DNA from: Sphingobacterium thalpophilum
Lineage (GTDB): Bacteria; Bacteroidota; Bacteroidia; B-17B0; Aurantibacillaceae
Direction of reading: 5' to 3'
Assembly (NCBI GenBank): GCA_943325195.2
Contig: CALPON020000007.1
Span: forward strand, 1-43,535
Length of the DNA: 43,535 bases
The translations under genes and the position numbers were made by a program. Below, one piece after another: positions 37,441-43,535 of this stretch. The notes beneath the pieces are model-generated. The model was not told the origin of the DNA, did not search any database, and saw only the letters and a list, made by a program, of their open reading frames with translations. The first letter of the stretch is position 1; each line of letters starts with the position of its first letter.

Positions 37441-38496
37441 ATGAAAGCTAAGTATATAGTACCTTCTTTTATTGCGTTTTTAGGTTTGATGGGCTCACTT
37501 ATGGCACAGGATGTCCATTTTTCAATGTATACTGAAACGCCGAGTGCCATCAATCCCGCGCTAGCTGGTGTTACCTACGAAACGCGTGTTTCAGCAAATT
37601 ACAAATCGCAGTGGTCTTCAGTAGCGAATAAATACGAGACCATGGCTATTTCCTTTGATCGGACCATCAAGCATAAAAAATTAAAGGATAATTATTTTGC
37701 CATTGCTGCTAATATATACAAGGATGTGGCGGGAGATGCCAAAATGGGCTTGTTAAATCCAAACCTTGGGATTGCTTACCTTCAGAAAGTCAGCAAGAAA
37801 ATGAAACTGTCCGGCGGTATTCAGTCTGGTTTCTTTTACCGCACCCTCGATGCCAGCAATCTGCGCTATGATGGTAATTATAATGGTTATAACTATGACC
37901 CGACGCGTCCAAGCGGTGAGCCTAATCCGCCTCGTTCGGGATTTAGTGCGTTTGATCTTGGTGGAGGGGTTAATTTGAATTTTGTGCAGAGTGATAAATA
38001 TATCAGCGCAAAAAACGCAGCAAAAATCGATGTCGGCCTATCCGCCTATCATTACAGTCTCGGCAAAACATCTTTTCTTACGACAGACGAAAAATTGAAG
38101 ACGAGAATTTGTGCATATTTTAATGGCGATTTTAATATCCCCAACACGAAAAACGCAATTTTACCTACGTTTTTGTATATGCGTCAGGGACCAAGCAGTG
38201 AATTTATTGCGGGTGCTATGTTTAAATTTATACTTGGAGACGCCTCTACATACACTGCTCTGAAAAAGCCACGTGCCTTGGCAATCGGTGGCTATTACCG
38301 CTTTAAGGATGCGATTGTCCCAAGTCTGTTATTTCAATACAATACCTACGCTATAGGTATAGCCTATGACATCAATGTGTCTGCATTGACACCAGCCTCT
38401 AAGCGAAACGGAGGAATGGAGATTATGCTGCGTTACAATGTTTTTGGCGGTTATGGGGTCAATCTGGGAAGAACCGATACGAAACCCTCTTATTAA
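37441..38496 (+). CDS. PorP/SprF family T9SS outer-membrane protein
   Basis: 351 residues. A signal peptide ends LMGSLMAQ; the mature N-terminus DVHFSMYTETPSAINPALAG is the PorP/SprF signature (here with PS-x-NPA-AG). The rest is a beta-barrel of alternating strands ending LGRTDTKPSY. Such proteins accept and anchor one type B substrate, here the adhesin encoded 6 nt upstream, and couple it to the T9SS translocon and gliding machinery. The pair is closed by a strong terminator at 38504. Confidence 0.93.
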   Translation: MKAKYIVPSFIAFLGLMGSLMAQDVHFSMYTETPSAINPALAGVTYETRVSANYKSQWSSVANKYETMAISFDRTIKHKKLKDNYFAIAANIYKDVAGDAKMGLLNPNLGIAYLQKVSKKMKLSGGIQSGFFYRTLDASNLRYDGNYNGYNYDPTRPSGEPNPPRSGFSAFDLGGGVNLNFVQSDKYISAKNAAKIDVGLSAYHYSLGKTSFLTTDEKLKTRICAYFNGDFNIPNTKNAILPTFLYMRQGPSSEFIAGAMFKFILGDASTYTALKKPRALAIGGYYRFKDAIVPSLLFQYNTYAIGIAYDINVSALTPASKRNGGMEIMLRYNVFGGYGVNLGRTDTKPSY

Positions 38497-38565: not shown

Positions 38566-39282
38566 ATGCCGAATGATTTTTTTGAATTTAAGCAGTTTAG
38601 AATTAAGCAGGACAAATGTGCCATGCGCGTCAGTACCGATGCCGTGCTACTTGGAGCCTGGGTAGTTCCTAATGGAAGCAAAACCATCTTGGATATTGGA
38701 ACTGGTACCGGCGTCATAGCTCTCATGCTGGCGCAAAAATCGTCCGCTACCATCACTGCCATTGACATCGACAAAGAAAGTACGGAGCAAGCACGCGATA
38801 ACGCAAACAATAGTCCTTTCAAAAACAATGTCACCGTTTATCATCAATCCTTTCAGGATCTCAGTCTGCAGTGCTCTGATAAATTTGATTTGATTGTCAC
38901 GAATCCACCTTACTTCATCGATTCCCTCAAGAACAGCAGTGATACACGTACACATGCGCGTCACACAGACTCCTTAAGTTTTTCAGATCTGCTCTGCGGT
39001 GTTAAAAAACTATTGAGTGAAAAAGGAAAATTTTGTCTGATTCTTCCCACAAAAGAAGCTGCCCTATTTAGGGACCTAGCCCAAAGCAAAGGCCTCTATC
39101 TCTCGAAGTTATTGCGTATCAGAACCCGTCTTGAAAAAGATACTGAGAAACGGCACCTCATGCAATTTGAATTTAAGGAGACCGAATTTTCAGAAGCTAC
39201 TTTGGTAATTGAAGCCGACAGTCATCGCAATTATACAGCTGAGTACAAGGACCTCACAAAAGACTATTACCTGAACTTTTAA
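38566..39282 (+). CDS. tRNA1(Val) (adenine-37-N6)-methyltransferase-like
   Basis: 238 residues of the YfiC/TrmN6 family. The N-terminal FKQFRIKQDKCAMRVSTDAV is the family block, the SAM loop is LDIGTGTGVIALMLAQ (about residues 43-58), and the catalytic NPPYF follows LIVTNPPYF. It methylates N6 of A37 in tRNA-Val in enterobacteria; other Bacteroidota members are less studied. It lies just past the porP terminator and I see no clear promoter, so read-through or an unusual promoter may drive it. The start is ATG. Confidence 0.9.
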   Translation: MPNDFFEFKQFRIKQDKCAMRVSTDAVLLGAWVVPNGSKTILDIGTGTGVIALMLAQKSSATITAIDIDKESTEQARDNANNSPFKNNVTVYHQSFQDLSLQCSDKFDLIVTNPPYFIDSLKNSSDTRTHARHTDSLSFSDLLCGVKKLLSEKGKFCLILPTKEAALFRDLAQSKGLYLSKLLRIRTRLEKDTEKRHLMQFEFKETEFSEATLVIEADSHRNYTAEYKDLTKDYYLNF

Positions 39283-39688: not shown

Positions 39689-42600
39689 ATGAGAAAGTTT
39701 ACCCTTATCAGCTGCTGGGTTTTCTGCATTTTGATTAATCAGGGCATTGCGCAAAACGAAGCTCGTATCTGGTATTTTGGAAATGGTTTAGGCTTGGATT
39801 TTTCTTCTGCGACACCCAGCCTACTAACTAACGGATCAACCGCAACAAGCTTAGGTTGCGCTGGTGTCTGCAGTAGTTCAGGATCTCTTCTTTTTTACAC
39901 TGATGGTGTTACAGTATGGAACCAGACTCATTCAGTTATGGCAAATGGCACTGGGCTTTTCGGAGATCCTGGTGCACAAACTTGTGTTATTGTCAAAAAA
40001 CCTTTATCGCCGAACCTATATTATGTCTTTACAGTTCAGGGAGGGGGTGGCTCTGCGGGTCTCTGTTATTCGATTGTTGATATGGCTCTGGCAGGAGGTA
40101 ATGGGTCGGTGACGGCCAAAAACGTTCCTCTGCATTCAACACCTTGCGAAGAAAAAATAAGTGCAACCAAACATTGTAATCAGACTGACGCTTGGGTCAT
40201 GGTGCATGAAATGAACACGCAAAATTTTCAGGCTTTTGCGCTTACTGCAAGCGGTATCGGAACTATGGTAACATCTTCCTTTTCGCCCCAGCCATTTCCT
40301 ATTACCACAATCAGCACTCACACTGGCTATTCTCCCAGAGGCACTATGAAATTTTCTCCCAACGGAAGGAAGCTGGCTGAAGTGTTTACTGTTTCCAGTG
40401 CTACTACCCCCATCGGAAATGGAGGTGTTGGAAGTGCGGTATTTGAAATCTGCGATTTCAACAACAGTAGCGGGTTATTATCAAACATTCAAATTGCCAG
40501 CGGCTTTGGTGGAGGTTTTTCAATATTAAGCTGGGCATACGGTACTGAATTTTCTCCGGATGGTACTAAACTTTATTTTGCAACAACCTCAGGAATGTTG
40601 GCGCAGATTAATCACTGTGTTTTTCCATCTACCAGTACTTGGGGAATCCCGTTTACAGGGGATTCCCCACCTGTTAACAGCCGCGCGGCCTCTCTGCAGC
40701 TGGGTCCTGATGGAAAAATTTATGTAGCAGTTGCTGGCTCAAATTCGATAGGTGTAATTAATAATCCTAACCTACCTACTCCTTCCTGTAATTATGTGCC
40801 AGGAGCCATCTCTCTTGGCACCGCAGTGTGTGGTCTCGGTCTTCCTAATTTTTATACGCCTTATTTTGAAAACACGTCGCAAACCTTTACAGCGGCTCAA
40901 ATTCCCGGGTCTGATTGTCGCAATTATAATTTTTTTGTTCCGATAAAATGTGCGGTTGCTCCAAACAATCCAAATAGTCAAATTCCCTTTTCAGGGTATA
41001 TTATCAACAATTACAGCTGGAATTTCGGTGATCCTCTTTCGGGAAGTGCTAATACATCAACAATTTCTAGCCCAAGTCACTATTTTAGCGCGGCCGGCTC
41101 ATATACAGTGCAACTTGTCTTGTCCTATCTATGCGGACGTAATGACACTCTGCGGCAGACCCTTGTTGTTCCGAATACAGCAACAATTAGTGTCGTCACC
41201 CCCTCTCTAAGCTGTGGATTTGCTTCTGCCACAGTTATACCAAGTGGCGCTCTGGGTCCTTGCTCCTATACTTGGCAACCAACAAACATCAACAATGCAG
41301 TTGCCAATAATCTCAGTCCGGGAGTCTATACTGTTTTTACAAAGGATGCAGGTACTGGTTGCTCTTACATTACTACATTGTCCATTGGTCCGACTGTAAT
41401 AAGCAGTTCGGTCAATGCCGCGGCAGCCTGCGCCGGTGTAAACACCGGAACTGCATTAGTACTCACTTCCGGGGGCTCTGGTAGTTACACCTATTCATGG
41501 ACGGGAACATCTTCCACTTCCACGTTAGTAAGTGGCCTTCCGCTTGGCACCAATAGTGTCATCATCAGTGATCTTGCTAATAATTGTGTGCTCACTAGTA
41601 CTTTTCAGATTAATCAGTCACCGCCCCTTCTTTTCAATATCAGCGCCAACATTAACAACGCACTTTGTACAGGCAATTCTTTGGTGCTATCGGGAATTTG
41701 CACCGGTGGTGCGCCCCCTTACGCTTATTCATGGATAGGTGGTAGCAACACTTCTTCAATTGCCATAACGCACAATCTCTCCGGCAGCTACACTTACACC
41801 TGTAATGTTCTAGATGCCCTGAATTGCAGCGCCAGCAAAACTTACCAGGTAATTTACATACAAACGCCCACCTTAGCGGCATCAAACGTCAGCCTATGTT
41901 CCGGTCAATCAGCAACGCTAGTGGCAAGCGGAGCTTCCACATACTATTGGTTACCTGTTAACACTAATGCCAACCCCTGCGTCATTAATCCATCAGTTTC
42001 CGGAACTTATACGCTTATTGGTAACACGGGGCCCTGTGGGACTACCAAAACAATCAGCGTTATAGTTACGCCTTCTCCAATACTCACGCTCACTTCTAAT
42101 GCCCCGGTTTGTTCAGGCGGACTGCTTAGCTTATTTGGCAATGGATCTGCCGTATATTCCTGGTTGGGACCATTGGGATTCTCATCACCATTACAAAACG
42201 CAACTATCAGTCCAATTGCTTTAGCCGCGGGGGGAATATATTCTTTAACAGGAACGGGAGCTAGCGGTTGTGCATCGACATCAACATTGTCAATAACTGT
42301 ATTACCTTCCCCCTTATCTCAAATCACAGGGAACACCAATCTGTGTGCTGGTCAGCTGCTGAGTTTAAGCAGTGCTACTGCCGCGCAGTACAATTGGTCG
42401 GGGCCGCTCGGCTTTTCAGCAACTACACAGAGTATCCTTTTAAACGGTTTAATAACAAATCAAAGCGGTGTTTACTCAATATCAATAACCGCAACAAACC
42501 TTTGTGCAGCCGCTTCATCAGTTAGCGTTCAGGTGAATTCAAACCCGACGATTATGATTTCGGGACCAAACATGCTTTGTTTAGGGCAACAGGCCACACT

Positions 42601-43012
42601 CACTGCATCAGGAGGAAGTACTTACTTTTGGAACAACGGTGGAAATACAAGTACCTTGATAATAACTCCTAATTTTTCTACTGTTTACACGGCAACTGGA
42701 ACATTGAATGGCTGCACTTCTGTATCACAATTTAAGATCGGCGTTTCAGACTGTGTGGGATTAAACGAAGAATTACCTGAATTAAACATGAGCTACTTTC
42801 CGAATCCCACTAAAACCAACTTAACTTTAATTTGTGAACTACCAATGGACGTGTTACTGTTTGATGCAAGGGGCAGAATCGTTGTAAGTTGCCATCTTGA
42901 AAAGGGCAGGCAACTGATTGCAATGGAGCACTTGGCTTCCGGAATTTACTTCCTAAATGCAAGGGCAGGTGCTTATCAGCAAAAACACTTCAAGATCGTG
43001 AAGGAGGACTAA
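39689..43012 (+). CDS. Large repeat-rich surface protein with T9SS type A sorting domain
   Basis: 1107 residues; signal peptide ends INQGIAQ. The N-terminal ~350 residues have a repeating propeller-like pattern (WYFGNGLGLDFSS, LLFYTDGVTVWNQTHSVM, MKFSPNGRKLAEVF, EFSPDGTKLYFA), as in gliding-motility associated proteins. A PKD-type domain follows (SWNFGDPLSG to YFSAAGSYTVQLVL). Then come six or so SprB-like/Ig repeats with Cys-x-Gly openings (SLCSGQSATLVASGAS, NLCAGQLLSLSSAT, MLCLGQQATLTASGGS). The end is a type A sorting domain (YFPNPTKTNLTLIC, LLFDARGRIVV, GIYFLNARAGAYQQKHFKIV), unlike the type B end of the other adhesin. No PorP partner follows it. A surface adhesin role is inference. Confidence 0.88.
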   Translation: MRKFTLISCWVFCILINQGIAQNEARIWYFGNGLGLDFSSATPSLLTNGSTATSLGCAGVCSSSGSLLFYTDGVTVWNQTHSVMANGTGLFGDPGAQTCVIVKKPLSPNLYYVFTVQGGGGSAGLCYSIVDMALAGGNGSVTAKNVPLHSTPCEEKISATKHCNQTDAWVMVHEMNTQNFQAFALTASGIGTMVTSSFSPQPFPITTISTHTGYSPRGTMKFSPNGRKLAEVFTVSSATTPIGNGGVGSAVFEICDFNNSSGLLSNIQIASGFGGGFSILSWAYGTEFSPDGTKLYFATTSGMLAQINHCVFPSTSTWGIPFTGDSPPVNSRAASLQLGPDGKIYVAVAGSNSIGVINNPNLPTPSCNYVPGAISLGTAVCGLGLPNFYTPYFENTSQTFTAAQIPGSDCRNYNFFVPIKCAVAPNNPNSQIPFSGYIINNYSWNFGDPLSGSANTSTISSPSHYFSAAGSYTVQLVLSYLCGRNDTLRQTLVVPNTATISVVTPSLSCGFASATVIPSGALGPCSYTWQPTNINNAVANNLSPGVYTVFTKDAGTGCSYITTLSIGPTVISSSVNAAAACAGVNTGTALVLTSGGSGSYTYSWTGTSSTSTLVSGLPLGTNSVIISDLANNCVLTSTFQINQSPPLLFNISANINNALCTGNSLVLSGICTGGAPPYAYSWIGGSNTSSIAITHNLSGSYTYTCNVLDALNCSASKTYQVIYIQTPTLAASNVSLCSGQSATLVASGASTYYWLPVNTNANPCVINPSVSGTYTLIGNTGPCGTTKTISVIVTPSPILTLTSNAPVCSGGLLSLFGNGSAVYSWLGPLGFSSPLQNATISPIALAAGGIYSLTGTGASGCASTSTLSITVLPSPLSQITGNTNLCAGQLLSLSSATAAQYNWSGPLGFSATTQSILLNGLITNQSGVYSISITATNLCAAASSVSVQVNSNPTIMISGPNMLCLGQQATLTASGGSTYFWNNGGNTSTLIITPNFSTVYTATGTLNGCTSVSQFKIGVSDCVGLNEELPELNMSYFPNPTKTNLTLICELPMDVLLFDARGRIVVSCHLEKGRQLIAMEHLASGIYFLNARAGAYQQKHFKIVKED

Positions 43013-43166
43013 GGCTACTTACTAATACCGACCTAAAAGATTGCCAAGCCTCTCATCCTTCTACCCTAATTTACCTATAGCATAAATGCAATGTATGCTT
43101 CTCTTTCAAATAAGTCTTACTGGAAATATAAAGAGCATTAACCTGATCTAAGACTTTCTTAACTTT
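43013..43166. other. Gene-free stretch after the surface protein gene
   Basis: A 154-bp AT-rich stretch with no coding signal and no clear terminator for the upstream gene. A long minus-strand reading frame runs through it and both repeats but is not a gene. Confidence 0.5.
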
Positions 43167-43314
43167 TAAAATTGGCTTGCCATTGCATCTTTTAAGGGCG
43201 AAGGGAGCGTCCCGCTCGGAGTTTAGCGCAGTATTAGGAGAAAGGCTTGGACTACGTTCGGCACAGGTCGCGAAAGTAAAAAAACAAAAAACCAAATTAT
43301 TAATTGAAGGTTTC
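43167..43314 (-). repeat. Tandem degenerate repeat, copy 1
   Basis: 148 bp, beginning on the plus strand with TAAAATTGG and ending with GGTTTC, as does copy 2. Read on the minus strand it starts with a hairpin plus T run (43314 down to 43286) and then a ~90-nt GC-richer block whose translation includes SPSLSPNTALNSERDAPFAL and CNGKPIL. Copy 2 gives a similar peptide in a different frame. DNA similarity between the copies is roughly two thirds by eye. Confidence 0.7.
43286..43314 (-). terminator. Terminator-like hairpin in repeat copy 1
   Basis: On the minus strand AAACC and AATT pair with GGTTT and AATT around a short AT loop, followed by a T-rich run. It occupies the same place in the repeat as the hairpin of copy 2. 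Confidence 0.5.
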
Positions 43315-43318
43315 TTTC

Positions 43319-43470
43319 TAAAATTGGCATGCCAGAGCAGGACATAGCACCGAAGGGAACTTCCTGATCGGAGTGCAGTGCAGTTTTGGGAGACAGGTTT
43401 GGGCTGCAGGCGCGTCAAGTACGGAAGGACAATAAAAATAAAAAACCCCAACTTTTCAGTTGAGGGTTTC
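43319..43470 (-). repeat. Tandem degenerate repeat, copy 2
   Basis: 152 bp with the same ends as copy 1 (TAAAATTGG, GGTTTC) and 4 nt away from it. Minus-strand translation gives SPNLSPKTALHSDQEVPFGA followed by CSGMPIL, matching copy 1 in order but lying in another frame of the long reading frame. The repeat may continue beyond the window. Confidence 0.7.
43441..43470 (-). terminator. Terminator-like hairpin in repeat copy 2
   Basis: On the minus strand AACCC, a bulged T and CAACT pair with AGTTG and GGGTT around GAAA, followed by six T. A minus-strand transcript entering from the right edge would stop here. Confidence 0.65.
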
Positions 43471-43535
43471 TGATGGTGAGTTAAGAATGAAGCGTTGGGA
43501 CTTGTATAAATGCAAAAAGCCTCGCATTGCTGCAA

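Follow-up and report, generated by a model that had tools for sequence, protein, structure and literature searches.

The window, meaning the whole stretch of DNA that was analysed, comprised 43,535 bases and was the entire contig 7. Close to its right-hand end two adjacent direct repeats, copies A and B, face the end of a surface-protein gene, and the locus raises the question whether they are a gene, members of a dispersed repeat family, a stack of terminators or the remains of something else.

The repeat pair and its coding potential

43165-43316, minus strand: copy A, a probable decayed 5S-tail unit with its preceding degenerate terminator, 152 bp (minus-strand core 43257-43165)
43317-43473, minus strand: copy B, a probable decayed 5S-tail unit with its preceding terminator, 157 bp (minus-strand core 43409-43317)

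The copies had a spacing of 152 and kept the same internal order. Their alignment spanned the whole length with 105 of 152 aligned bases identical, and the local alignment score was 70, compared with a mean of 16.6 and a maximum of 29 in 2000 dinucleotide-preserving shuffles. When the A/T-rich terminator part was excluded, the first 110 bases of each copy still scored 54 against a shuffle maximum of 32. The pair was not reported by TRF. Overall, the lengths and the shuffle test bore out the original prediction of two tandem repeats of about 150 bp with a shared order.

Translation of the minus strand confirmed that the block S-P-x-L-S-P-x-T-A-L-x-S is common to both copies in different frames (SPSLSPNTALNS and SPNLSPKTALHS), as had been noticed earlier. 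Identical residues between A and B numbered 16 of 30 in the frame of the block and 17 of 31 on the opposite strand, and the A/B mismatches by codon position were 5, 9 and 12 (p=0.24), with no clear preference. The 154-aa frame through the repeats had no Pfam match at E 1. Since the opposite strand was equally conserved, codon-position bias was unclear and Pfam gave no match, the block is poor evidence of a protein, and as far as these comparisons go its peptide likeness is a mirror of the DNA likeness. The earlier view that the long frame is no gene was supported by the same Pfam and codon-position results; neither copy showed a conserved frame with a codon-position bias. A peptide search at E 10 produced matches in 6 of 60 genomes, including the window's own; the seven matches in the five relatives were dropped after reading, the DNA there being by eye unlike A and B. 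A short protein-coding gene or a pair of gene fragments on the minus strand would agree with the 16 identical residues, but with the other strand equally alike, the frames differing, no clear codon-position bias, no Pfam match and peptide matches in relatives that lack DNA likeness to A and B by eye, such a gene is extremely improbable.

Search for further copies

A dispersed repeat family had been proposed for the pair. The core pattern with up to 3 mismatches was found in 1 of 100 genomes, which was the window's own, and neither the core pattern nor R1, a sequence profile built from A and B alone and blind to place, found a third copy in G000, an incomplete assembly of 217 contigs. No exact match to the core pattern was found in viral contigs. 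When the whole repeat served as a DNA query against its own genome, 31 matches were returned at E 10, 30 of them other short matches, of which the best was 22 bp long (E 4e-4) in the A/T-rich terminator part. The same search of the 100 genomes gave 72 matches at E 0.1, the window's own included; among the matches listed the best outside the window had E 1.2e-6, and most lay where the query has its A/T-rich terminator parts, some over its tail-like ends. Many copies at unrelated places were thus not seen in G000, and a dispersed family of A and B is left without support, since the core pattern and R1 yielded only the window's two copies there. The original prediction had also held that a lack of further copies would leave a local duplication; this describes the pair itself, but the duplicated unit, an rRNA-operon tail, has relatives elsewhere.

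In the 87 family genomes R1 produced one non-window hit below E 0.05, on contig 165 of G013 (18.7 bits), with an E-value of 0.0048 that applies per genome; over all 87, about 0.4 such hits would be expected. At its start that contig carries the 3' part of a 5S gene, 128 bp before the match, and because R1 is blind to position it was the place of this match and not its score that pointed to rRNA. Weaker R1 hits of 14.8 bits and below in five genomes were judged to be chance after L063 and L064 were read and four were aligned.

The contig end and the neighbouring genes

37441-38496, plus strand: PorP/SprF gene, with homologues on 5S-bearing contigs of several relatives
38566-39282, plus strand: methyltransferase gene, with homologues on 5S-bearing contigs of several relatives
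39689-43012, plus strand: convergent surface-protein gene with PKD domains and a T9SS sorting domain, the homologue of which faces 5S in L162
43504-43535, minus strand: 3' part of a presumed rRNA-operon (5S) terminator, cut at the contig end (L158 match, motif survey)

The minus strand of the window starts with TTGCAGCAATGCGAGGCTTTTTGCATTTATAC. The last 32 bases of the window were identical at 31 of 32 positions to the 5S terminator of L158, whose start lies 15 nt downstream of the tail motif GATGCCAATTTT, and a 5S tail of the window is predicted about 15 nt beyond the contig end. The motif GGCTTTTTGCNTTTATA had 12 matches in 11 of the 40 genus genomes, one of them the window's. Seven of the 11 other matches followed a 5S gene, or the 3' part of one at a contig start, at a distance of no more than about 210 bp; one, also at a contig start, came after two 5S-tail units, and three, with no link to 5S, lay elsewhere (G025:C76, G012:C25 and G037:C58).

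The window tail (523 nt) was also compared with the 450 nt behind 60 named 5S tails, and the best 12 scores consisted of 11 at 38-60 and a twelfth at 35, while no score above 35 was seen among 1124 control segments taken from parts of these loci away from 5S; these controls were masked, an earlier background (n 1154, maximum 60) having still contained 5S places.

Gene order was preserved in L162, which is identical to contig 18 of G017: a partial PorP, a methyltransferase and a surface protein follow one another there as in the window, and one unit separates them from the 5S tail that they face; the surface protein there had 55% identity over 1087 residues to that of the window. Methyltransferase homologues with 68-80% identity were present on the 5S-bearing named contigs L144, L128, L114, L116 and L157. 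Based on the L158 terminator match, the likeness of the tail to 5S-trailing regions and the L162 synteny, the repeats very probably stand directly behind an rRNA operon whose 5S gene itself lies past the contig edge. The position downstream of 5S is therefore reached indirectly, from the 5S-type terminator at the contig end and the synteny with L162, and the contig edge is indicated as an rRNA-operon end.

5S-tail-like sequence and terminators in the two copies

43165-43178, minus strand: 5S rRNA 3'-tail-like end of copy A, AAGCCAATTTTAAA (GCCAATTTTA at both copy ends)
43285-43314, minus strand: degenerate terminator between B and A, GAAACC...GGTTTTTTG (folding, alignment)
43319-43330, minus strand: 5S rRNA 3'-tail-like end of copy B, ATGCCAATTTTA (identical to the genus 5S tail and flank at 12 of 12 positions)
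43436-43465, minus strand: terminator before copy B with an 8-pair stem (43465-43446), a loop of 4 and a T run (terminator scan, likeness to L141)

The sequence GCCAATTTTA marked the end of each copy and occurred nowhere else in the window on either strand. The 5S gene on contig 97 of the same genome ends ...GTATGTCGATGCCAATTTTAAAG, and no such unit was seen in the region behind it. Against a 56-nt 5S tail reference, the window tail reached a score that none of 300 shuffles reached. This test began with 38 5S tails, of which L085, L086 and L105 were unrecognised and G023 was too short, leaving 34 and the window. The clear 5S sequence in A and B amounted to some 10-12 nt only, which falls short of a high similarity to 5S. 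The Rfam 5S model RF00001 had no match to A or B at E 5, and the whole window had 0 matches at Rfam gathering scores.

The terminator before copy B was near-identical to the 5S terminator of L141, from which it differed over 36 aligned columns by one mismatch and one gap. A terminator scan of 42900-43535 found 1 terminator, the one before B, where 0.7 were expected in shuffles, and did not detect the hairpin between B and A. The two copies thus differ: B is preceded by a terminator found in the scan, while the one before A is degenerate and scan-negative, so that a terminator hairpin with a T run, which the original prediction had given to each copy, is retained before B and is a degenerate hairpin before A. 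The related proposal of a terminator stack facing the convergent surface-protein gene likewise stands for at least one terminator, the second being degenerate. In addition, an Rfam scan of the window tail at E 5 produced one sub-threshold match, ctRNA_p42d (18.7 vs 50 bits), which at 43433-43471 overlies the terminator hairpin.

Units behind the 5S genes of relatives

At the same place relatives showed clearer units composed of a 5S tail, often a two-hairpin insert, and a terminator. Alignment showed that 49 nt of 5S-like sequence were retained in L170 and 30 nt in L128. Two extra units each were present in L128 and L136, with a period of 158 bp in L136, and one unit each in L117, L141, L161, L131, L162, L139 and L170. 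Read by tail and T run, a unit was present at 9 of 58 loci (L117, L128, L131, L136, L139, L141, L161, L162 and L170), L134 and L165 being too short for this tail-motif count. ATGCC of some kind was present at 23 of the 58 loci, and L116, L126, L132, L146, L149 and L152 had ATGCC and a T run yet stand outside the unit count.

In the shuffle test for remnants, 6 of 59 named loci were at the floor (none of 200 shuffles), L134 being too short, and in the test with the 56-nt reference 7 of 34 genus sites were at the floor, including the discounted G029b (+474); the 60 named loci overlap the loci with G handles, so that the genus-site and named-locus counts are not independent. Exact ATGCCAATTTT was found 50-450 nt behind 5S at 5 of 58 loci and in 1 of 1270 control segments, drawn from these loci after the neighbourhood of 5S had been masked; an earlier control (16 of 1138) still held real 5S genes.

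Two further observations were made in these regions. Short palindromes of the type TCCCGAT..ATCGGGA were present in L136, L128, L139 and L131 at several points of the rRNA tails, namely after the 5S tail, within the remnants and between GATGCC and the A/T stretch. L206, a contig end (G036:C21), carried units repeated in tandem that share this terminator and spacer (GATGCCAATTTTAGAAACCTCG...), and is probably another rRNA-operon end.

The two-hairpin insert

In L136 (twice), L141 and L161 two hairpins interrupt the tail between GTC and GATGCC, and related forms of this insert were present in L131, L162 and L139. The consensus structure had 94.9% of its cells paired, a flattering value because the structure was derived from the same seven sequences as were tested. 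In hairpin 2, 9 of 18 pairs were changed on both sides, and its covariation score was reached by 0 of 500 shuffles.

R2, a covariance model of the units of 7 relatives with the window left out, ranked A and B first and second in the last 736 bases of the window (9.6 and 8.9 bits; next 3.3), with E-values of 0.013 and 0.02 for these 736 bases under a rough calibration. It aligned to both copies in register, with hairpin 1 and the GCCAATTTT tail in place. Of the 7 pairs of hairpin 1, 2 in A and 3 in B were non-standard, and hairpin 2 was unrecognisable in either copy and left unaligned by R2. A whole-genome search of G000 with R2 returned nothing at E 0.1, which makes the support from R2 modest and local.

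In the 40 genus genomes R2 gave 32 rows in 17 genomes: 19 at rRNA tails or 5S-tail arrays, a number that includes the model's own 6 sequences and several rows that are the opposite strand of another, 6 after groL-like genes, 1 elsewhere (G008:C4) and 6 unclassified. Hence rRNA ends are not the only places with the insert: the clearest related units of relatives stand behind 5S rRNA, though their hairpin insert also occurs elsewhere. A REP- or MITE-like family of dispersed palindromic repeats that includes A and B, with an incidental rRNA neighbourhood, would account for the two-hairpin element after groL-like genes in six genomes and at one other place. Such a family is nevertheless very unlikely to include A and B, as G000 holds no third copy, R2 was blank there at E 0.1 and the 5S tail ends both copies.

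The R2-like two-hairpin element in L207, L208, L211, L213, L214 and L224 stands directly after the stop codon of the groL-like gene, at about locus position 1501. The groL-like products of these six genomes all had a C-terminal GGMGGMM (6 of 6), and that of L208 matched Pfam Cpn60_TCP1. At the contig ends L209 (G003:C85) and L221 (G003:C94), a hairpin like hairpin 2 precedes the 5S sequence CTTGGCCTAAAGCCC; G003 had no match to the 5S pattern GAACAGAGAAGTTAAGCCC, and these ends may be an expanded 5S rRNA or a remnant.

These findings point to a covarying two-hairpin insert at strongly expressed operon ends. Speculatively, the 3' ends of rRNA and groL operons, which are very highly transcribed, could recurrently gain this element in the clade, and behind rRNA it could multiply as tandem [terminator - hairpins - 5S tail] units, either as a selected insulator against convergent genes or as a selfish element that targets a single 5S site, GTC^GATGCC.

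RNA folding of the copies

The plus strand of copy B (43320-43468) folded better than shuffles (z -3.0, 0 of 200). Copy A folded no better than shuffles on the two strands (z +1.3 and +1.0), nor did the minus strand of copy B (z -0.7), and the consensus folds of A and B were weak, at about -15 kcal/mol on either strand. The promoter scan showed no sigma-70-like promoter, under a model that does not extend to Bacteroidota-type promoters. The plus-strand fold of copy B was treated as unexplained and not as an RNA gene. A family of small structured RNAs in tandem, with terminators of their own and a function of their own in a plus-strand transcript or an rRNA-operon trailer, could draw on this fold and on the covarying hairpin 2 of the relatives' inserts. 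With copy A on both strands and the minus strand of copy B folding no better than shuffles, weak consensus folds, hairpin 2 unrecognisable in A and B and no sigma-70-like promoter in the scan, an RNA family of this kind is decidedly unlikely.

Origin of the repeats

Overall, copies A and B are probably decayed 5S-tail/terminator units behind an rRNA operon and at most back-up terminators, a reading drawn from sequence comparison. We infer that the 5S gene stands immediately beyond the contig edge and that A and B derive from units of this kind. Duplication of the operon end would first have given a [terminator - spacer - 5S tail] unit, which would then have taken up the hairpin insert between ...GTC and GATGCC... 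and been duplicated again to give A and B. Decay would have left one terminator intact, one degenerate and the insert as remains. The only remaining role of A and B would probably be that of back-up terminators, which stop rRNA transcription in front of the convergent surface-protein gene.

The points against a decayed 5S origin are the scant 5S sequence, the low R2 scores, the one weak terminator and the bare 5S gene of contig 97. Plain tandem terminators with a local duplication, in which the shared tail would be chance and no 5S descent is involved, fit the fact that the clear 5S tail is 10-12 nt only and lies in an A/T-rich motif. This is unlikely, as the tail stands at the same place in A, B and the units of relatives, ATGCCAATTTT is enriched behind 5S, the window tail resembles 5S-trailing regions and the R1 and R2 results point the same way. 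Descent from 5S-tail units would account for a stretch that is open to misannotation as a hypothetical protein. Most likely, A and B are largely a known kind of leftover, and neither a novel gene nor a family of dispersed repeats.

Comparison with known systems

Tandem intrinsic terminators occur at the ends of rRNA operons. As in that arrangement, more than one terminator stands in a row behind 5S here; unlike plain tandem rRNA terminators, these are accompanied by a piece of 5S tail and a remnant of the insert. REP, BIME and MITE elements are palindromic repeats, and the insert of the relatives is like them in being a two-hairpin palindromic element that also follows groL, whereas A and B differ from them in that they were not found dispersed in G000.

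The closest counterparts are the 5S rRNA remnants behind a normal 5S gene described in other phyla by Stepanov & Fox 2021 (PMC7812874). Those remnants lack terminal parts, contain inserts, are sometimes multiple and each follow a putative terminator, and the genera include Desulfitobacterium, Desulfosporosinus, Desulfotomaculum and Pseudoalteromonas; the string 'bacteroid' has 0 occurrences in its main text. Among the papers listed in searches of the open-access literature, no report of 5S-remnant arrays in Bacteroidota was seen. Measured against that description, the units of the relatives fit well, and A and B are alike in place, number and loss of most of the 5S sequence. They differ from the remnants so described in their Bacteroidota host and in having lost nearly all of the 5S core, with no 'high similarity' to 5S. 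Because this similarity is lacking (RF00001 was blank at E 5), A and B are filed as a decayed Bacteroidota variant and not as full remnants, and together with the clearer units of their relatives they would extend 5S-remnant arrays to a clade of uncultured Bacteroidota.
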